Assembly (NCBI RefSeq): GCF_954871325.1
Contig: NC_088777.1
Location: 42,447,366-42,511,365 of the forward strand
Direction of reading: 5' to 3'
DNA length: 64,000 nt
From: Gordionus sp. m RMFG-2023
Taxonomy: Eukaryota > Nematomorpha > Gordioida > Chordodea > Parachordodidae
The notes under the pieces were generated by a model, which saw nothing but the letters and a program-made list of their open reading frames with translations, did not search any database and was not told the origin of the DNA. Shown one piece after another: positions 3,001 to 62,661 of the stretch (position 1 is its first letter; each line of letters begins with the position of its first letter). Position numbers and translations under genes: made by a program.

Positions 3001-6000
3001 TTTTATATGAAAAATATTAAATTGCAATAGTCATCATTACTTATTAGATTTTTAAAAAAGTACCTAATTTATTTTGATTTTCGTTGTTTCAATTTTTGTT
3101 ATAATGTATAAAATTATTGTTAACTGATTAATTATAATCTCAAATGTAATTATAAATTATTTAATATTCAAATTATAAAACCTAAACTAATAATATTTTT
3201 AAATTTTTTTATAATGTTTTAATGTAGTGCTACCTGCTTCCCTTTACAGTAAAAGAAATAATTAGTTTTTTAAAATTAAAAAATCATTTTAATAATAATT
3301 GATTTAATAACACAAGCAATCGTCATGTCCTCAGCATTGGTGAATTTAATTGTTTAATATAAAACTATTTTCCCTAAAGAATTCCTAAGTTTGGAATGCA
3401 CTCCAAAAGATATAAATATTCCCTCAACTGAAGCTTTTGATTGTTTTGCTAGGATTCTATCCTAAATTAAATGTTCCTGCTACCATCCTTCAATTTTATA
3501 CCTCATTTATTATTTCATTTGAAAACATAATTTTATTAAACGGGTAGATGTAGCATGGAATTTTACCATGATAGATAAAAGGTGACACCTTGATCTCATT
3601 GTAATTAAATTTGAAACATATTTTGGGGTTGGAAGATAGGATAAGAAATGTGTCGGTGAAGGTATTATAATAATGACGATTTTTAGGATGATGGGTTACA
3701 AAAGAGAACCATATATAAAGTAAATAACGAACTGTATTAGATATAATTGCTTATTTGATTTGCTTAATTTGTACAGATTTAGATTGAAAAATAACATATA
3801 TTATAAATTTTTTAAAAACATATTCATAATATAATCTAAAAACTAACCACTAATGGAAAAGGGAAGAGAGGGAGAGTTCTAAAAAATGCTTGATTTCTGG
3901 GACATAGGCCCAAAAATAATAATCAAGATTATTTTTAATTAAGGGTATTAATATTAACGGATGAACGAATATTACCCTAGCATTTTAAATTGGGTTAATG
4001 ACCCAATTAGGAAATAACAGTAGCTAAAATTAAAAATAATAAAACTATTTTTATTTAATAGTCAAAAAAAATTTTTTAATTTGGTTTAACAGTCTTATTT
4101 GAGAACATTCATAATAATATTCGTTTTAGAATATTGAATGATTTTATTTCTCACTCACTGATATCGACTATTTCGATATTTTTTAAAACTCCATATCAGA
4201 GTATTGCAAATGGCAAAAGTTTCAGGCCTGGCCCATCCAAATTTTTACACGGCCTGGCTCGTTTCCAAATTTTTTATTAAGGTGGCTTGGCCCAGTTTTT
4301 TTAAATACAAGATCTAACCCAAAAGCACACCAAAATAAACAATCATTTATAATAATGAGGAGTTGAATTAAAAGCACTACACTTTCTGGATTATCACTTC
4401 TATCAAGTATCATAATTCATCAATAATCCAGCCCAATGATTTTTTTGCCTGGCCCAACCTGACCCAAATAAAAAAATTCAGACATTGCCCCGCCTTGGCA
4501 TTACAGGCCCAAATGTATAATCGAATTTTTAATTGACAGTCGGCTTTTTATACGATAAAATATCAAATTAGCTCATGATTTATCAATATATTTTTTTTTC
4601 AGCAATTTCCCGAACAGGTCTCATGAGAAACATTAACTTTTTACTTGCAAGTTAAGGTAAAAAAAAAGTTATGATGATATTTTTCAATCTAAATCTGTCC
4701 TTCTCTGATTGAATAGTTGATATTTAATTTACATCAGAGTTTAAATTAAATATGACTAAAAAGATAATTTTTTTTTAAAAACTTTAAATAGTCAAAATCA
4801 AAATGTATAAAGCTATATTTTCTTATCTATAATATAAATTTATAAAAAATTTGAAAATAAATTTAGCTATTCATTTATAATGGCAATGGCAGAATTGGTC
4901 TTAACTCTAAAATTAACTGCCATTTTTTTGTACATTACATAAAATTTATCTATATCCTTATCTTATAATTTACAAATATAAAGTTTAGTGAAAAATTGGA
5001 ATCTACTCGCAAAATATTGGTATCAAATAACGAAGATGTGGCCAAATCAATGCAGAATTTAAGATCGGTATATTGAAAAATAATATTATATTAATTTAGT
5101 TATACTAATTAATACTTAGAAGAACACCATAACTTTACAGGACTGGTGAATAATTTTTTTTAAATATTTAAAAAATTATTAATACTTAAAAAATATTTAC
5201 ACTTAATCAATTTGCCGAAATTGGCTGTTTCTAAAGCCCATAGATTCATGAACCTAACATTTTTTATAAAGTTAAATTGTATATAGATATTTCTGACAAT
5301 TTTTAAAGATCATTTAAGAAAATATAAGAAATCACATATAAATTTTTGTTACGTGACTGTTTAAAATTTTTTTTAAACATTCTTTGGCAGGCAATTTTCA
5401 GATTAATTTTTTTTAACATATAGATCAATACACACGAAACCAAAGATATAATAACATGTTTATCGCGGCATCACGATACCATTAAAATTGGTTTAGAAGA
5501 TACCTCAAAAATTATAAAAGTGAGTTTATAAAATATTCTCTCTTTGTAACCCTAAAAATATAAATATAGCAAATTTAATTTTTATGAAATGTTATTTAAT
5601 TATGAGAATTCTCTTAAATTTTTGATATAAGGTACTTAAAAAAACATCTTATATAAAATAAAGGAAGCGTATGATAAGAACCATGAACGATTCAAAGAAC
5701 AAGATGTTATCTTTTGTAAAACCAATGAATCTTGTATCGAGGAAAATACTCAACAATTTTTAAACATCGCAGCTTCTTTAACTGAGAGTCACGTCAATTT
5801 AGAGAACGTCATAAATGGCTATCTACCACAAGCTAGGGAAGAGTGTCTTGAACTTATAAATTCTTGGAAATTCGATATTAAAACTGGTTATATGGATATT
5901 TTTTTCTTCTAAACTTTTTATTTGAGGTTTGAACAAAGAGTCAAAAACGGCATGTTTTAATATCTCAGTATTAAAGATGTATGGGATCCAATTTTTTCAT

Positions 6001-7813
6001 CAGTACTCTACAGTAGTTATCTTTATCTACATAGGCCCTAATTTTTTAAGCCTGGCCCAGTCCTAAATTTTTTTAAAAAAGTTTTGCCGGCCTGATCTTG
6101 GAAATTTCTTTTTATAGCCCAACCAGAAATTTTTAAAAAAATTATTTGTTCGCCCGACCCGTCCCGAATTTATTTAAATATAGAAATTAATTTTTTTTAG
6201 TTTTTTACTATTAGCAGCTTTTTGTTTATTTTTAATTTTGATTTTTTTAAATAAATGGGCCAAAAGCCCTTTCGAACTGGGTACGAGCCAGGCCTACTTT
6301 TGCAGATCTCTACTCTACATATCTTAAAAAATATTTATTAACCTTTCTTACGCATGGAATATAAATATAATTAATCGAAAATTTTGTTAGAGATGATTAA
6401 ATTTTTTTGTTAAAGTGGCTGAATTCAAATAAGGATGATCCTGGCCATTGATCTGGTACATCTCTAGTTATTATTTTTTGAGTGATACTATATCTATAAA
6501 CACGCGTGTCCTAAGTCACGAAATATTGTTTTAAACATTTATTTTAATAAAAATCAAATTAGGAATGACCCCCTGTAGAAGAGACACACTGTACAGGAAT
6601 GTTCTAGCTAAAAGAAGCGAAACGATGCTTAATGAGTCGAGCGATTTTAATCTCAATGAAAATGTTAGTTTGATAAATTGTTTTTATATAGATCAGAGAC
6701 TTGCAGAGGTACATTTCCATGGCGTGGCACAAATTTTTTTTTAAAACAATTTTTTCGTCCTGGCCTGGGTTTTATATTTTCACACCTGACCCCGATTTTT
6801 TTATTATATTACATTTATTTTTAATATTTATAGCTAATAATGGTGATTTAAAATATACTGCCCGGCCTGGGTATATTTAAAAAATTAAAATACAGCCGGC
6901 CCCGTGTACTCTGACCGGGTCTGCAGGTCTTTGATAGAGAGAACGATTAAGTTTTTTTTTTAAAAAAATATTATAAATTGTGGTTGTAAATATATTTTGA
7001 TTGTCGTATTGTTTATCTTCCGGAATTCTATATATTTTATTAAAATTGCTAGATTTAATTGATCGCTAATTTTTTGGGAAAAAATGTGAACCAGGTCATA
7101 TAAGTCAGATTAATGAAGATTATCCTAATTGATTCTTATTAAAGTTTTAATTCTATTCATTTAAGAACAGAATAAAAGGTATACTTATATAATTTTTTTT
7201 TTAATTTTAATCTAAAAATGGTTTTAAAAGTAAATAATTATTTAATTAGAATAATTTTTGTTATAAAATTTGTGAATGTTTTTATCCCCTATATTTGTGA
7301 ACAAGTTAAAAAGAGATAAATTCAGTACATTCTTAAAAATTTATAATGCTAACTAGTACAAAATCCCTCCATTTGAGCCGATTTTTAAAAACGGCTAACT
7401 CAATATTTTAGCCAGAAAAATATTGCCTAAGCCTCAAGATTTCATTAATAGATGTCCAAACCTTTGTACGATATATGAGCAAAATCTTCAAGCTTGCGTA
7501 ATATTTCTCTGGACATAAGAGTAGCTGTTTTTTCGGCTCAAATGGAGCGATTTTGCATCATTAATGCTAACCATAAAGCGGTATTTAAAAATATAAGGCA
7601 AAATTTACATTGAATTTTATAGCATATCTGTTTTGTATGTAACAGGAGATCAAGGATTCTACAATTACCACAACAGTATCAAACTCGAACGATTCCACAT
7701 CAAAGTCCTCTAAAAATGTAAAGTTTAAACAGAACCACGAAAATGACTTTCTTATAAATAACGCCGATTGCCCAAAAGAAATAAAAGAAAATAATGGGAA
7801 TTTTAAAATATAA
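79..7813 (+). CDS. KIF11: Kinesin-5 (KIF11/Eg5/bimC) heavy chain, 3' eight exons, partial
   Basis: Kinesin-5 is the homotetrameric plus-end motor that slides antiparallel spindle microtubules. Only the distal stalk and tail are in the window; the motor domain lies upstream of base 1. Exons, with consistent phases, are 79-276, 685-824, 1644-1743, 4984-5067, 5424-5519, 5664-5886, 6563-6663 and 7646-7813 (stop TAA 7811-7813). Together they encode 369 residues. The first six exons give polar, helical sequence with no other recognisable domain. The decisive motif crosses the junction 5886/6563: TGMTPCRRD, the bimC box, whose Thr is the conserved CDK1 site needed for spindle targeting. A Ser/Thr/Asn-rich tail of about 60 residues follows it and ends the protein. 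The intron after exon 3 is 3.2 kb and repeat-filled; the last two introns contain short inverted-repeat elements. The family call rests mainly on the bimC box; the first three exons are the weakest. Confidence 0.78.
2061..2262. mobile_element. Short inverted-repeat element, family H, copy 1
   Basis: This is a roughly 200 bp palindromic element. The left arm contains TTTTTAAAAACGGCG and the right arm contains GAGCCGTTTAAAAA. The core reads AATAGATGTCCTAAC, and the same core recurs in four other copies in this window (7358, 23016, 29859, 32378). There is no coding capacity, so it looks like a non-autonomous DNA transposon (MITE) of unknown superfamily. Confidence 0.6.
4225..4515. repeat. GC-motif dispersed repeat (family G)
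   Basis: Islands of GGCCTGGCCC and CCTGGCCCAACCTG are embedded in A/T-rich sequence, ending near GGCATTACAGGCCC. The same pattern occurs at about 6030-6310, 6697-6930, 31310-31460 and 34660-34860. It is probably a degraded short non-autonomous element. No coding frame is present. Confidence 0.45.
6030..6310. repeat. GC-motif dispersed repeat (family G) in kinesin-5 intron
   Basis: This intronic stretch carries repeated GC islands (AAGCCTGGCCCAGTCC, GCCGGCCTG, CGCCCGACCCG, GAGCCAGGCC) separated by T/A runs, ending near TTGCAGATCTC. It resembles the better-bounded copies at 6697 and 34660. Confidence 0.45.
6697..6930. mobile_element. Family G element with CTGCAG ends, kinesin-5 intron
   Basis: The sequence starts with AGACTTGCAG and ends with CTGCAGGTCT, an imperfect inverted pair. 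Inside are GC islands such as CTGGCCTGGG and CCCGGCCTGG. The copy at 34660-34860 has the same ends (GACCTGCAG ... CTGCAGGTC). The length is about 234 bp with no coding capacity. Confidence 0.55.
7358..7556. mobile_element. Short inverted-repeat element, family H, copy 2 (best ends)
   Basis: The terminal inverted repeats are nearly perfect. The left end has CTCCATTTGAGCCGA and the right end has TCGGCTCAAATGGAG. The core AATAGATGTCCAAACCT is shared with the other family H copies. It sits in the last intron of the kinesin-5 gene. Confidence 0.7.
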
Positions 7814-10800
7814 TTTTATAAATATCTTATTTTTTAAACTACAATAAACAAAAAAATTTATAATTATTTATATTTTATTTTAGGATTATCTTTATTTATT
7901 TATTTTTATAATTTTTTTTAGTATAAATATTATAAACAACGATACAGGTCAAAAGAATCGAAATGGTGAACATTAAATATCATTTATTCCCATTGAAATA
8001 TTTATTATGTTTATAAATATCGAAATTTAAATAAAATTATCATCCGGAAAATTTATATCTACCCTGTAAATGCGTTACATTGACAATCTTTGTGAATGTG
8101 GTAGTGTTTACTTTCCTTACTTTTTATTGGCTCCTTAAATGTAATATAACCATCACATCATTTTTTTTTACTTAATCGGTTATTTTATTTTATATCAGAA
8201 TTACCTTTAGGTTTCATGTTCTTATTATATTTTAAATATACGGAGAAAATTAGACAAACAAGTTTCAACTTTCTAAGTCAACTGCGGATATTTATTTATT
8301 TAACTTTTAGTTTTTGGGATCAACAAGTACTTTTGTCAGCTACTTATGTCCAGGTACTTTGTAGCTATTTAATTCTTTATGGAATAAAATATAATAGGCA
8401 TCAGTGGTCTGCAATAGAAAGAGAAAGAAAAACTATTTTTTAAATAATTTTTTTATTTTTATTAATTCATCAAAATCATGATTATGTATTATTAAATAAG
8501 AATGCATAAAATCATTATAAAATAACTGTATACAAAATATCAATAAATATATAAAATTAATTTATAAAATAAAATAAGATCTAAGGCTTATTTGATACAA
8601 TATTTATTTGAATTTCCCCGGTCAAATATAGGCCAAACCGAACTGTATTCGACCAAAATACGCACCTGATTTTTACAAATAACTATTTTTTTATAAAAAA
8701 AATGATAATTCATAATTTTAAAATATGAGTTTAATTTTGATGAATTATACTGGATCGGATAAAAAATTTAACGAGCCAGACATGTACATGAAAAAAATGA
8801 CTGGTTAGATAAGACATTATCGAAAAGGCAGAAATTCTTTAAAAATACAAATTTGCTGGCCTCGCCAATACAGGGTTCATATCAATTGTTACCAATACTT
8901 TGTTCGGAAGTGAGGCCCTGAATTTTATTAAAATCAAAGGGGAAAAAAATGAGACAGATTGGGTACCCCAGGATTTTACCTTCGTCAGCAGATATTTCTC
9001 GAAATCTGTCAGTCCAATTTTTTAAGTTTGGGTAATATGTATCATTTCCTACTGACCCATTTTCATTAAAAAAAATTTTCCAAATCAATCACATTACAAC
9101 TAATTAGAATTCATAGTTTCATTCTAAACAAAAATGATAAAAAAATTAAAAAATCACAAAGCAATGCTAGACAACACATATCCAACGAACTACTGAAAAA
9201 TTGCTCGAAGATATTATCCACACCATCTCCTGCTACAAAATCGTAATTTTATATATAAACAAATCATTCAAGACATCGGGAAATACATTGATAACTGCTT
9301 TGCATCCTTTAGATTTGGTCATAACACCTATTGAACTAATATCTGCTCTAAAAATCAGGCTAGAAAAATCTATAATTTACAAAACTGATGCCTACACAAT
9401 TATTATCGACATATCATCGATTCTATAAACCAATTAATATGAATATACTTTTTGGTTGTTGCATCTTTCGGGGGCCATATTTTTCTATTTTATTTTTTTT
9501 TATCTTATTTTTTTATGTAATATTTTTTGTTTATTTTTTAAAAATTGTCTAAAAAATGGGTTAGGTGGGTTCAGTGAAAAATCTCTGAACCCGATTCGGG
9601 TTCAGGTGGGTTCCATGTTCGGAGACCAGAAAAAGAAAAGTAATGAATGACTTATTAAAATTAGTTAAAATAACAGAAACATCATTTTTTTTTAAAAAAA
9701 TTTATTTTAACACGATAAAAATTATTTATCATCATAATTATAATACTACAAATACAATTTAAAAAATTACTAAATATATAACAAAAATGATTACATGCAA
9801 AAATGATCAAAAAATGTTTTTTAAAATTAAAAAAAAAAGCTGTAACCCTCAACCCTAAATTTTAAAAAAGGGTTAGGGTTCAGTGAAATATTGAGGGTTC
9901 AGAGTTTTGGTTCGCTCGTACCTTTTTCTGATTGGTTAATTTATTTTAAAATAAATATATATTGTTTCAAAATTTTTTTTGTAAGTATTTATTTTTTAAA
10001 AAAAGTTGTAAAATATATCTAAATATAAATATTATCACTTCCCAGTTTTTGAATTTTTAACATATTTAGAGCCATAATTCTTAGTTCCGATTGGGTAGAA
10101 AAAAACAAAGGGAATTCTCTTCTCTCTTTTCAGCTAAAAATTTATTAACCCCAAAAAATTTATAGCCACAGTGCTCTAATCACCTCCCCCCTCACAACAG
10201 AGTAAACGCTGCATATATATTTTAGAAAAAATAAAAATATATATTTATTTAAAAATAAAATAAAAATTAACCAATCATAAAAAAGAACCAATCCAATATT
10301 GATATTAAAAAAAAAATGAATAATATGCCCCCGAAAGAAGCAACCCTACTTTTTAAGTATAAAATTAATACACACGTAATAAAAATCATAATGTCCTTTA
10401 AAATGAAATTTGGCATTAAACAAGACTATTCTATCTCCCTCTATTTTTAACCTATTAATTATTACCTAATGTAACGTTTATACATCAGGAATTTAAAAAT
10501 TAACTTTGATAAAACCAAAATCCTATCTAACTTATATTTACATCACGAATTAATAATTGATAATAGAAAAATTTAATTCACAAGATCATAGAAATATCTT
10601 GGAGTTATAATTGACTATAAGACCACATCCAGGGTGGAAACGGTTCGAGTTTTACATTCGTTCCGTCAGAAGTCAATATTCGTCTTAAAAATGGATCCGG
10701 CAAATTTGAAGTTAAAATATACTTTTTGATCCGGCAAATTACTAAATTCTTTTTAATGCTAAAATTTTTTAAATTCCAATTTCTAATAGAGTAGACGTAA

Positions 10801-11559: not shown

Positions 11560-13287
11560 GGTAAATTTATAAAAATATAATTTATATTGAAATATATTTT
11601 AAAGGAATTTAGAAAAAGGAGAATATATATATAAAGAAAAAACGAAAATTAAAATATCCAATTTTTAATGTATTTTTTAAATCTGTTTTGTTATATATTA
11701 TATATTTGATTGTCTTTTTTGAGGGTTGTGCAAAAATAAAAAAACATATTGTTATTTTATTTTAATTGTTTGTTTTTTTTAAAATAATTTACCCTATAAA
11801 TATCACATATTATCAATAAAATTTAATGTAAAATATTAATTTTATAAAAATAGAAACTATATTTCTTAGAAATTTATTCTAAAAATATAAATAACTTTTC
11901 ATATTATTAAAAGATAGTGTAAGAATTAAACAGAATGCCACTTCAAAACTATTAAAAGCTCCTATAAATACTACTCCATAAATATTATCTCAAATAAATA
12001 TAAAAATTAAAATTTATATAATAGCATCATTAACCTACTACGATGAATCTATTCTTATTTAATGTTAATGGAAACAAATGTATATTTACTAACTTATTAT
12101 ATCTCAAATTTTATTTTTCAATTTTTAATATAATAAATTTATCTCTTAAATGCATAAATATTAAAAGAAATTATATTAGGAAGCCTAAATGATTATTAAT
12201 TAGCACTTATTTTATATTTGGGTGTGAATACATGTGGAAAACCTAAAAAATTATAAAAAAGGGATAAGTTTCTTTGATAATTAATTTTTGAATAAGTTTA
12301 GAATCGAAAAATAACCTTAAACTTGTAATGCTTACATTGTTGGCGTTATTGATCCAAATATCTTCATTTTTGTTTTCTATACTTTTATTTACTGTAAAAC
12401 ATTATCTCCAATAATATTTTAGAAATATTGTGATTTGACTGGTAACCGACTCAAACCGACCGCTTACTAAATATTTGATGGTCAGCATTCTTAGTTTTAT
12501 CCAGAACTTTTGTTTTTTCTGGCAATCTACCCTATTGGAGTTATAATAATTGTTGTATCTATTCATTTTTTTAAATAATTAATTCCTTTTTTATTAATTT
12601 TTTTATATTGTTATGTAATTACAATTTTTTGAATATTATAATTAGTTATTATTGTGGTGTTTATTCATTTTTTTAAATAATGAATTCTTTTTTTTTATAT
12701 TTTGAATATTATAATTAGTTATTATTATTAGATTATAATTTTAGTTGGGCATTGTTAGTATATGTTAAAATTATTAATTTCTTTCGTTATTCAAATTTTT
12801 TTTTGGTTAAAAAATGTCATTTGAATATTAAAAGAAAAAGATATATATACGAACGAAACAAACTCATTTTAAAAATTATTCACCAATTATTATTCAATTA
12901 ATTCTATTTCAAAATAAAGTTACCCGTACTTCTAAATACAAAAAAGGTTTGAAGTTATATATATTTTAATATTTAATCTTCCTTTTTTTTATAATAATCA
13001 ACTTCAAAACTAAACACTGGTCCGAAGTAAACATATTCAGGGACAGCAGATATTCAGTCTAATAAATAGACTATACAATTAAATTTAGAAGAAATAAATT
13101 GTGATTAAAAGTCAATTTTTTTTATATATCAGCGTATTTAAGGTAAAAAAAAAATATATATATCTTTTCTTTTATTTTTAATGCCTTTTTATGCTTTTAT
13201 TTTAATCATAATATTAATTACATTGTTGTATAATTTTGGCCGCAGCATTAAGTTATTTGTGATTAAAATTATTTTGAATTCTTTGTA

Positions 13288-13698
13288 ATGTATCTAAGTC
13301 AAGTTATTTTAAGGAATTTATTGTTGGAAAATATAATGGTAATAATATTTTCGGTAATAGTTTTAACATTTTTATTAGGTTTAATTTTAGGTAGAAATAC
13401 ATCGTACATCAAAATAGAAAATAAGGAATTAGATAAGATAAAAAGTATATTAAATGAGGAAAATAAGGAGAGAAACATAAACATTTTTAGAAGTACAGAG
13501 AATTTCAGACGAGTTAGTTGTTATAGCTGTGGTCAGCCAGGCCATATGTCGCGTGATTATGATTTAACAAAGGATTTGAAATGCGCGAGATGTGGCAGGA
13601 ATGGCCATTTAGCTATAAGATGTAGATTAAACAATATGATTGTGGGATGTAATATTTGCGGCCAGGATGGACACACTCAAGAGAAATGTAACAAATGA
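13288..13698 (+). CDS. Zinc-knuckle (CCHC) protein with an N-terminal hydrophobic segment
   Basis: A single-exon frame of 136 residues. Residues 17-35 form a strongly hydrophobic stretch, a likely membrane anchor. A charged helical linker follows. Three CCHC-type knuckles come next: 78-91 (C-x2-C-x4-H-x4-Y), 99-112 and 121-134. Knuckles 2 and 3 are intact; in knuckle 1 the last ligand is Tyr instead of Cys. CCHC knuckles bind single-stranded nucleic acid in CNBP-type proteins and in retroelement Gag proteins; joining them to a membrane segment is unusual. The frame ends in TGA at 13696-13698, but the same frame stays open for 139 more codons (next entry). Origin is unknown: possibly a domesticated or decayed retroelement protein. 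Confidence 0.5.
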   Translation: MYLSQVILRNLLLENIMVIIFSVIVLTFLLGLILGRNTSYIKIENKELDKIKSILNEENKERNINIFRSTENFRRVSCYSCGQPGHMSRDYDLTKDLKCARCGRNGHLAIRCRLNNMIVGCNICGQDGHTQEKCNK

Positions 13699-14118
13699 CT
13701 AAGCAAGAAATATTTTAATAATGAATTTTGTAATAATAATAATTTTTTTAATGTTGATAATTTAGTAGCAAATAAGAATAAATATTTTAATTTTAATAAT
13801 AAATTTGGTAATAATAGTTTTTCTAATTTTAGTTCAGGTAAGAATAAACATTTTAATTTTAATGATAGATTTGATAATTATAATAATTTTTTTAATGTTA
13901 ATAATTGTAGTAAAAATAAGTATTTTAATTTTAATAATGATAATTTGTATAATGTTGATAGTGTTAGTGCAAGTAAGAATAATTATTGTAATATGAACGA
14001 TAAATTTTGTAATAATAAAAAGTGTTTTAACGTTGATAATTATAATTCAAGCGATATTAATAGAAGTATAGGTATAAGGAGTGATATAAAAATAAAAAGT
14101 TTCCTTTTTTGCAGGTGA
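13699..14118 (+). pseudogene. Asn/Phe-rich peptide-repeat frame, in frame after the UGA
   Basis: Directly behind the TGA of the zinc-knuckle frame, the same frame remains open for 139 codons until TGA at 14116-14118. It encodes about five imperfect units of 21-27 residues, each starting like KYFNFNN and ending like SKN or GKN. Cys and His are scattered in it. Maintenance of this peptide period in one frame suggests that it was or is translated as a C-terminal extension of the zinc-knuckle protein. This could occur by stop readthrough, by splicing around the stop, or in an ancestral intact copy. A purely A/T-driven tandem repeat is the alternative. Confidence 0.4.
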
Positions 14119-15706: not shown

Positions 15707-16607
15707 TAGGGGAGACAAGGGATGGTCGGCGCAAGGGGCTTGTCGGTTCAGCAGATTTTTTCTAAAAACCAGGCAGAAATTTAAATTTAATTATGTAATA
15801 GCATTGTATAATATGTATATTTGAGTATAAAAATATTTTATACCCCTCAGCTATTTAAATTTAATTATGTAATAGCATTGTATAATATGTATATTTGAGT
15901 ATAAAAATATTTTACACCCCTAAGCTATTTAAATATTTTTATAATAAAATGTGTTCTTTAGGAAAAAATCAAAATGTTTTCACACCACATTTAGGTGGTA
16001 TTAAAATATGAAAGGTTTAAAAATAATAAAATTGGCATTATATGAAATTTAAAATCCTCTTTTCGTATTTCAGAATTTTTAATAGTCATATATCATATTT
16101 AAATATATTTTTCAATGGAATTAATAATGGTAGTAACTAAGGGCTAGTAGACTCAGGGCTAATCGGACCAATCAAATTATGCTTACAAATATTATATTAT
16201 AATATATTTATGTAATAATATAAAATAAATATTCATTGGTTATTATTATATATATATTTAAATCAAATAAAAAAATTTATTGAAAATTTTACACATTTAA
16301 TTCAAATACCTATTTATATTAATCATTTTTATGTAAATGGTATATTTGTATCAATACTAAACAATTGTCCATGAAAATAATGGTATAATAATGTTAATTA
16401 ACTTATCGGAGACTTAATAAAATAATTAAATTTCCAAGCCCTGGCTTGAGGCTTGTTGGTGAAAATTCACTTTTATTAGGATAAATCTTGAGAAAAAGAT
16501 ATATAATTTTAAAAATCAATGTATAAGGTTAGGTAGTTGTTTTCAAATACATCAATTATTTTAGGACATATGAGAACAAAAATTGCGCTGACTAGCTCTG
16601 TCCCCTA
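15707..16607. mobile_element. 0.9 kb inverted-end element, family L, copy 1
   Basis: The left end reads TAGGGGAGACAAGGGATGG and the right end, reverse-complemented, reads TAGGGGACAGAGCTAGTC; both then run into CGGCGC or CAGCGC. A second element of almost the same length (26717-27621) has related ends (GGAGACTGGGGTTAG on both sides) and a related internal GGGGCTTG motif. No long open frame is present, so it is a non-autonomous element. Confidence 0.55.
15781..15928. repeat. Two tandem copies of a 74 bp unit
   Basis: The unit contains TTAATTATGTAATAGC, TATAATATGTATATTTGAG and ends in CCCCTCAGC or CCCCTAAGC. The two copies differ at only a few bases, so the duplication is recent. It lies inside the family L element at 15707. 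Confidence 0.8.
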
Positions 16608-35488: not shown

Positions 35489-36509
35489 ATGTGGGAAACA
35501 ATTCCTATACATGATAGATATAATTCTAACTATCAAGTATTCTAAAATTTAAAAAAATGTTCTTCTACATTATTTATAGGATGATCCCCCAAATCTTTTG
35601 CTCAATCACCAATCTAAATATCAACCTTCTGATATAGATGCCATTGAAAGTCTTTTGTTGATTAGCCAATATGGTTCATCTTCTATCAAGCAAAAGACCT
35701 TATGGACTAAAAGTTGGGAGCTAAATTCAAATGGATCTAGTCAAAGTGAGAAAACTTTTTCAGATGATGAAAGTGAAAAAGTAATATAGGTTATATAACA
35801 TATTTGTAAATAATTTTATAAGGTTTATGAGACTTTATCTGATAAATGTATTAATAACACATCTGAATGTATTGCAATAGCATCTGATAATGACACTCAA
35901 CCTTTTATAATACCACCACAAGCCCTTGACACATCTTATATCTCTCATCAACCAAACCATACATACATAGCTCCTAAGCAAACAGAAAATGCATATATCA
36001 CTTTATTACCTGTTCATATAAATTCAACAGCAAATATAGAACAAAACAATACATCATACCTTTTATTATTGCTTGAAAATCATCCAAATAATCCTCCCTT
36101 TAAAATTTTAAATTCAAAACCTCAAATAGTTAATTCAGAAATATACAGCACTAGACATCAATTAATTCTTAATAGACCAAAAAATTTTACCTGTAATTTT
36201 ACAAGTTGCCACAAATCATACTTTAAAAGTTCTCATTTAAAGGCTCATATGCGGATACATACAGGTAAATAGACAAATTTTTTAAAATGATTTTTTACAG
36301 CAAATATTATAGGTGAAAAACCATTTGTATGCTCCTGGGATGAATGCAATAGAATGTTTGCAAGGTCAGATGAACTCTCAAGGCACAAACGTACCCACAC
36401 TGGTGAAAAAAAATTTATCTGCCCTTTATGCCAAAGAAAATTTATGCGTAGTGATCACTTATCAAAGCACATTAAAAGACATGCCAAAAAGAAACAAAAA
36501 TTATGTTAA
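35489..36509 (+). CDS. KLF10: KLF10/11 (TIEG/cabut)-type zinc-finger transcription factor
   Basis: Exons 35489-35536, 35580-35780, 35823-36264 and 36313-36509 join in phase to 295 residues. Three C2H2 fingers of the Sp/KLF type end the protein: 207-229, 237-259 and 267-287, with linkers TGEKPF and TGEKKF. Finger 1 has [10 protein letters not shown], finger 2 [10 protein letters not shown], finger 3 [10 protein letters not shown]; these are the GC-box contact helices and match KLF10/11 best. Residues 34-48 ([15 protein letters not shown]) resemble the Sin3-interacting motif of KLF10/11, which points to a repressor. The middle is Asn/Thr/Pro-rich and disordered. The first exon (16 codons) is inferred from an ATG, a GT donor and matching phase. 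Introns are only 43, 42 and 48 bp, unlike any other gene here. Confidence 0.85.

Positions 36510-37199: not shown

Positions 37200-62661
<25,462 letters not shown>

Follow-up and report, generated by a model that had tools for sequence, protein, structure and literature searches.

The window analysed here is a 64,000-nucleotide stretch of contig NC_088777.1 (positions 42,447,366–42,511,365, forward strand) from the nematomorph Gordionus sp. m RMFG-2023 (assembly GCF_954871325.1). Judged from its sequence, the region 12551–14100 of the window is the 5' part (long terminal repeat, leader, ORF1 and the beginning of the pol frame) of an LTR retrotransposon of the Ty3/gypsy type that is truncated at its 3' end. 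The surrounding DNA is ∼79% A+T (12001–14000). The features of the copy are as follows.

12551–13016, plus strand: 5' LTR (TG...CA); the BLAST match to copy L010 begins at 12551 and the stretch matches both L010 LTRs, while the end at 13016 is placed from the LTR end in copy L028
13018–13035, plus strand: candidate primer-binding site, TGGTCCGAAG..., positioned by analogy with L028
13288–13698, plus strand: ORF1, the protein in the gag position (136 residues), with a membrane-type N-terminal helix, a helical stretch and zinc knuckles
13333–13389, plus strand: hydrophobic segment, ORF1 residues 16–34, Kyte–Doolittle value 3.14
13519–13560, plus strand: zinc knuckle 1, with the last ligand cysteine lost in this copy
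13582–13623, plus strand: zinc knuckle 2, CX2CX4HX4C
13648–13689, plus strand: zinc knuckle 3, CX2CX4HX4C
13696–13701, plus strand: UGA-CUA context of the putative gag–pol-type junction; ORF1 closes with TGACTA at 78 of 81 distinct places
13699–14100, plus strand: in-frame repeat linker rich in Asn and Phe, with which the pol frame begins; the frame is open
14101–14118, plus strand: non-element DNA past the breakpoint, holding the last codons of the frame; homology ends at 14100

The ORF1 protein has at least 150 matching places in the 287-Mb genome (150 of 712 candidates were scored), some of which are fragments or stop-bearing copies; a single host gene with a novel tail is ruled out by this number. 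The window copy matches the family over 12551–14100 only. Its homology to the four copies compared (L009, L010, L012 and L017) ends at 14100, and the DNA beyond is unrelated. The copy is damaged: its frame is cut before the protease, and the protease, reverse transcriptase (RT), RNase H and integrase are all missing. Because of this truncation, the 275-residue membrane protein with a low-complexity tail that the initial annotation had proposed is an artefact, namely the 5' stump of a gag–pol-type polyprotein. The same annotation had envisaged a family unlike any known; the family is instead of the Ty3/gypsy kind, with an atypical ORF1, and is no unknown host family.

Several other features were observed in the window. 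Myosin-tail coiled-coil stretches (Pfam PF01576) lie on the minus strand at 44906–45298 and 50187–50585 and are probably exons of a host muscle gene. A 152-codon open frame at 35814–36272 contains a single weak C2H2 zinc finger that scores under the Pfam cut-off. Tandem repeats occur at 39070–39419 (units of ∼52 bp, TTTATTTTACCTTTATAATATATTAATT...) and at 15779–15934 (a pair of 74-bp copies with 97% matches).

For the anatomy of the complete element, 20 loci of 9.9 kb were fetched. The order in the longer copies is LTR, ORF1, UGA, linker, protease, RT, RNase H, integrase, a further frame (ORF3), purine tract and LTR. Pfam scans of pieces of copy L022 returned RVP, RVT_1, RT_RNaseH, Integrase_H2C2 and rve in that order, and the best match of the RT piece among solved structures is Ty3 (4ol8, 1.2e-16). 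In L028 the element occupies 4004–9604, with 540-bp TG...CA LTRs, a 5-bp target duplication (TAGAC), a leader of 187 bp between LTR and ORF1, and a purine tract ahead of the 3' LTR; neither the pol nor the ORF3 frame is intact in this copy. Clean ends and a target duplication occur together only in L028 among the eight loci displayed, several of which are cut by the locus end. Terminal direct repeats are present in 13 of the 20 long loci (L010, L012, L015, L016, L019, L020 and L022–L028), and in ten of these 13 the LTR pair is present over at least 300 bp. Nine of these ten pairs are 96–100% identical and that of L010 is 92% identical. The near-identity of the pairs in L026 (100% over the 423 bp present) and L022 (99.6%) indicates that the family moved recently. 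The family thus has the terminal repeats, target duplication and purine tract, and the protease–RT–RNase H–integrase order with an RT closest to Ty3, that define Ty3/gypsy elements (Metaviridae). A quick tree places the RT pieces of four copies together with P0001 and P0002 at a support of 99, and P0006 as their sister at 98. Animal `K02A2.6-like' Ty3/gypsy elements (four hits, 35–43% identical to the RT/RNase H piece) fall on the same side of this tree, apart from the Gordionus branch, to which P0006 is sister. TGG stands just after the LTR, at the putative primer-binding position. A 12-base pattern complementary to the candidate primer-binding site matched 14 places in the genome, fewer than the 24 of the reversed control, and resolved no tRNA; nine of the 14 adjoin known ORF1 copies. 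A pol segment of ∼110 bp between protease and RT, repeating SEIIRSDFDRFKLPIIEDKQELVLDKLRNRTTEF, is tandemly duplicated in L012 (5975–6313) and in other copies, and its copy number differs between elements. In L011, read on its minus strand, two ORF1 copies (3800–4207 and 5839–6246) lie ∼1.6 kb apart in converging orientation.

ORF1 (13288–13698) encodes 136 residues with a strong hydrophobic segment at residues 16–34 (Kyte–Doolittle mean of 3.14 over 19 residues). The corresponding values are 3.03, 3.03 and 3.14 in L022, L023 and L028, so that the range of 3.03–3.14 comes from four copies, one for each of the groups A–D. The whole protein matches zf-CCHC at 6.3e-12. The initial annotation had described a hydrophobic segment and three CCHC knuckles followed by a TGA; the segment and the TGA (13696–13698) stand, while just two of the three knuckles fit CX2CX4HX4C in the window copy, the first having lost its last cysteine. 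Knuckle 1 is complete in L022, L023 and L028. Residues 94–135 match retroviral nucleocapsid chains among solved structures (best 2.3e-05), the likeness being to the zinc knuckles of proteins such as HIV-1 NC. Where retroviral Gag has matrix and capsid domains, ORF1 has a membrane-type helix, which the three knuckles follow. An AF2 single-sequence model shows one long helix (residues 2–68) at a mean pLDDT of 57.6, with high confidence for residues 1–30 only. ORF1 is conserved as a protein, with a pooled dN/dS of 0.28 between subfamilies A and B, 0.21 between B and C, and 0.34–0.65 inside subfamilies. The N-terminal halves of the A and B proteins differ strongly and the knuckles and linker are nearly alike, a pattern that suggests recombination between the two subfamilies.

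The Gag with a capsid that is usual for Ty3/gypsy elements was not found. Ahead of the first knuckle there are 77 residues in the window ORF1 and 71 in L028, including one hydrophobic helix, which is too little room for the usual capsid domain. No capsid family was detected in ORF1 at E ≤ 1, where the only hits were to zinc-knuckle models and, weakly, to unrelated families; that the element has a highly divergent capsid in another part is a residual possibility. A search of ORF1 against 5.8 billion proteins gave 16 candidates, none at E ≤ 1, and viral contigs gave no match to ORF1 or to the RT piece.

Downstream of the TGA, no stop interrupts the same frame for 139 codons, to position 14118 of the window, and the in-frame repeat is real (TRF periods include 66 bp). 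The initial annotation had reported both, and its description holds except that 14101–14118 lies outside the element. The window linker has no stop in this frame, while its two other frames contain 8 and 60. That the frame is open merely by chance, in A/T-rich repeat DNA behind an ordinary zinc-knuckle gene, is a reading for which the low-complexity tail and the A+T content of the region might speak, but it can be dismissed: none of 5000 dinucleotide shuffles of the linker was open (mean of 16.5 stops), as the initial annotation had anticipated, and elsewhere in the genome the frame continues to the protease and in several copies past it to RT. The protease motif was sought in 18 copies with a strict pattern, which misses, for example, the form in L010. 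It was recognized in 13 and unrecognized in the window copy (where this part is absent), L009, L010, L012 and L018. Five of the 13 (L022, L023, L024, L025 and L028) are open from the UGA to the motif, and the other eight have a frameshift or a stop ahead of it.

The residues of the linker appear to be under little constraint. Its pooled dN/dS is 0.66–0.73 in A and B, 0.99 between B and C, and 1.90 inside C, a value that misaligned repeat units may affect. The linker is 82 codons long and has no array in L027 and L028; in 11 other copies it runs for 168–225 codons up to the protease motif. Given the weak constraint and the copies that lack the array, we read it as a spacer of variable length in which the frame is kept more than the residues. 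In pairwise, non-independent counts within subfamily A, multiples of three make up 24 of the 42 indels in the linker, 26 of the 31 in ORF1 and 103 of the 518 upstream; the linker indels of B, C and D (3 of 6, 7 of 13 and 1 of 2) show no clear excess. Pooled counts across subfamilies (539 of 811 in the linker, 57 of 422 in ORF1 and 733 of 2830 upstream), which speak against codon-sized gaps in ORF1, were set aside on account of the poor alignment of divergent A/T-rich DNA. The initial annotation had named indels in the repeat frame as a refutation. Such indels do occur (18 of the 42 linker gaps in A are not multiples of three), but we attribute them to decay of the copies once inserted, given that the frame is still open as far as the protease in five of them.

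The end of ORF1 is nearly invariant. Alignment placed this end in 78 of 82 sequences, with TGA at the anchored stop in 74 and TGACTA in 73 of them; after re-anchoring within 12 bases, TGACTA was found in 75 of the 78 rows. Five loci with short alignments were read directly and all have TGACTA, giving 80 of 83 rows. Two rows are duplicates by their coordinates (L005 lies within L011 and L069 within L023), so that 78 distinct places out of 81 have TGACTA at the end of ORF1; the 81 are a subset of the at least 150 ORF1 matches, with shorter fragments mostly left out. The exceptions are L080, with one change inside CTA, L057, which has lost the motif, and L070, where the same hexamer stands 13 bases further on. 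In none of the 83 rows has a substitution turned the stop into a sense codon, which gives no support to the stop-less alleles or copies that the initial annotation had allowed for. Among 72 unbroken rows, the ORF1 C-termini form nine clusters, of which eight have TGACTA in at least one row (36 of 37 and 15 of 16 rows in the two largest); the ninth is a single row, L070 by its sequence.

Over the 78 aligned rows, which were re-anchored on TGACTA, positions 1–6 are 97–99% conserved and positions 7–10 are 63–78% conserved. The codons after CTA vary (AGA, AGC, GTA, TAT, AAT, GAA and GAT among them). CUA makes up only 33 of 376 leucine codons in the frames of five copies but directly follows the stop in 80 of 83 rows. 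This pattern points to selection on an RNA signal at TGACTA. Common descent accounts for part of the conservation, because the copies are related, the rows were re-anchored on the motif, and nearby positions (−3, −1 and +11; 97–100%) are conserved equally to the hexamer.

We consider the UGA to be a gag–pol-type junction, because the same frame runs via the linker into protease, RT, RNase H and integrase, and programmed readthrough of the UGA is well supported on the sequence evidence. Readthrough, as first suggested in the initial annotation, thereby gains the backing of both the TGACTA count and the same-frame pol. A small share of ribosomes would read UGA-CUA as sense, yielding an ORF1–linker–protease–RT–RNase H–integrase polyprotein that the protease may then cleave, and the level of the enzymes would be kept low relative to that of ORF1. 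The linker would serve as a flexible spacer, the knuckles may bind the RNA of the element, and the ORF1 helix may anchor the protein to a membrane. UGA-CUA alone is reported to give 1.5% readthrough in a reporter in HEK-293T cells (PMC4132726), and CUA after UGA is reported as sufficient for readthrough of the fungal tpi1 gene (PMC4207609). A stem-loop stimulator on the 3' side was rejected: no stable structure was found after the UGA in six copies, where the folding energies are mostly weaker than those of shuffles (z from −0.15 to +3.4). Readthrough would therefore rest on the short context alone. As a whole, the explanation by a high-copy Ty3/gypsy-type family, a truncated copy in the window and UGA readthrough into pol is in our view very probable.

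It is improbable that the UGA is an ordinary stop, its CUA kept by descent alone, and that ribosomes reach the pol frame through a spliced transcript, by initiating internally or by reinitiating after ORF1. Some pol stretches of L022 are missing from the annotated protein P0001, as splicing might produce, and we infer that these are predicted introns; methionines shortly before the protease motif in some frames are compatible with internal initiation. Such routes would not account for a TGACTA that is kept in nearly all distinct places while positions 7–10 vary. Moreover, no methionine is common to A and B in ∼115 aligned linker codons, and initiation near the protease would make the open linker frame needless. 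Selenocysteine at the UGA, which an in-frame UGA and the long open frame behind it might bring to mind, is highly implausible, as the window (whose copy lacks the 3' part) has no Rfam match of any kind at gathering thresholds and the context is a known readthrough context.

Readthrough of this type is already known, and we do not claim it as new; a search of the open-licence literature for UGA CUA readthrough in a retrotransposon gave no match. Among the closest counterparts are the fission-yeast Ty3/gypsy chromoviruses Tj1, Tosmo1–3 and Tcry1, which are described as having an in-frame TGA between Gag and Pol followed by a strictly conserved CTA or CTG (PMC10085805). The Gordionus family shares with them a TGA-CTN at the gag–pol junction. 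It differs from these fungal elements in its animal lineage, an ORF1 without a visible capsid, a repeat linker and the extra ORF3; the fungal elements carry a chromodomain, and the Gordionus integrase piece that was scanned ended before the end of pol. Tca2 of Candida albicans also has a UGA between gag and pol, with a potential 3' pseudoknot according to its report (PMC2194720), in contrast to the absence of a stable 3' structure in the copies folded here. The mammalian genes OPRL1, OPRK1, AQP4 and MAPK10, in which UGA-CUAG is read through and 12 nt 3' of the stop are reported to suffice (PMC4132726), share the hexanucleotide, but they are host genes and not gag–pol junctions, and the G that follows CUA in them is not generally kept in the Gordionus family. 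A 2003 survey, as related in a later paper (PMC5009743), counted 28 animal elements, out of 51, whose pol lies in the −1 frame.

ORF3 is a conserved frame of ∼108 residues after the integrase (9112–9435 in L022). It has a single knuckle, CX2CX3HX4C, in the copies displayed and at least 150 matching places in the genome (150 of 402 candidates were scored). One protein search found no relatives beyond Gordionus, its two candidates both being Gordionus proteins. Family scans gave nothing significant, and the fold prediction was too poor for use (mean pLDDT of 38.7).

The unusual part of the family is ORF1, with its ∼136 residues, membrane-type helix and three CCHC knuckles, and not the type of recoding. 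We tentatively suggest that this recently active animal LTR family does without a capsid. The membrane-anchored three-knuckle protein would gather the element RNA and, via UGA readthrough, the polymerase at a membrane, and together with the single-knuckle ORF3 protein would replace the virus-like particle. No capsid-less or membrane-type Gag in an LTR element was found in the open-licence literature by title and abstract. Elements that borrow Gag are known in general, and the ordinary knuckles and RT would be in keeping with an ordinary Ty3/gypsy lineage whose own capsid was lost and is now supplied by another element of the same genome. We regard such borrowing as rather unlikely: the family is itself high-copy, with recent insertions and a conserved ORF1, and a genome search with Retrotrans_gag (PF03732) returned nothing at E ≤ 0.01, though the search was weak, as none of 14 control genomes matched either.

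The UGA-CUA gag–pol junction of this animal Ty3/gypsy family, kept in groups A–D, would provide a natural test of a minimal readthrough context without 3' structure. LTR elements are generally considered to need capsid shells for reverse transcription. A high-copy, recently moving family without a visible capsid would make it a testable question whether membrane tethering can replace the shell.
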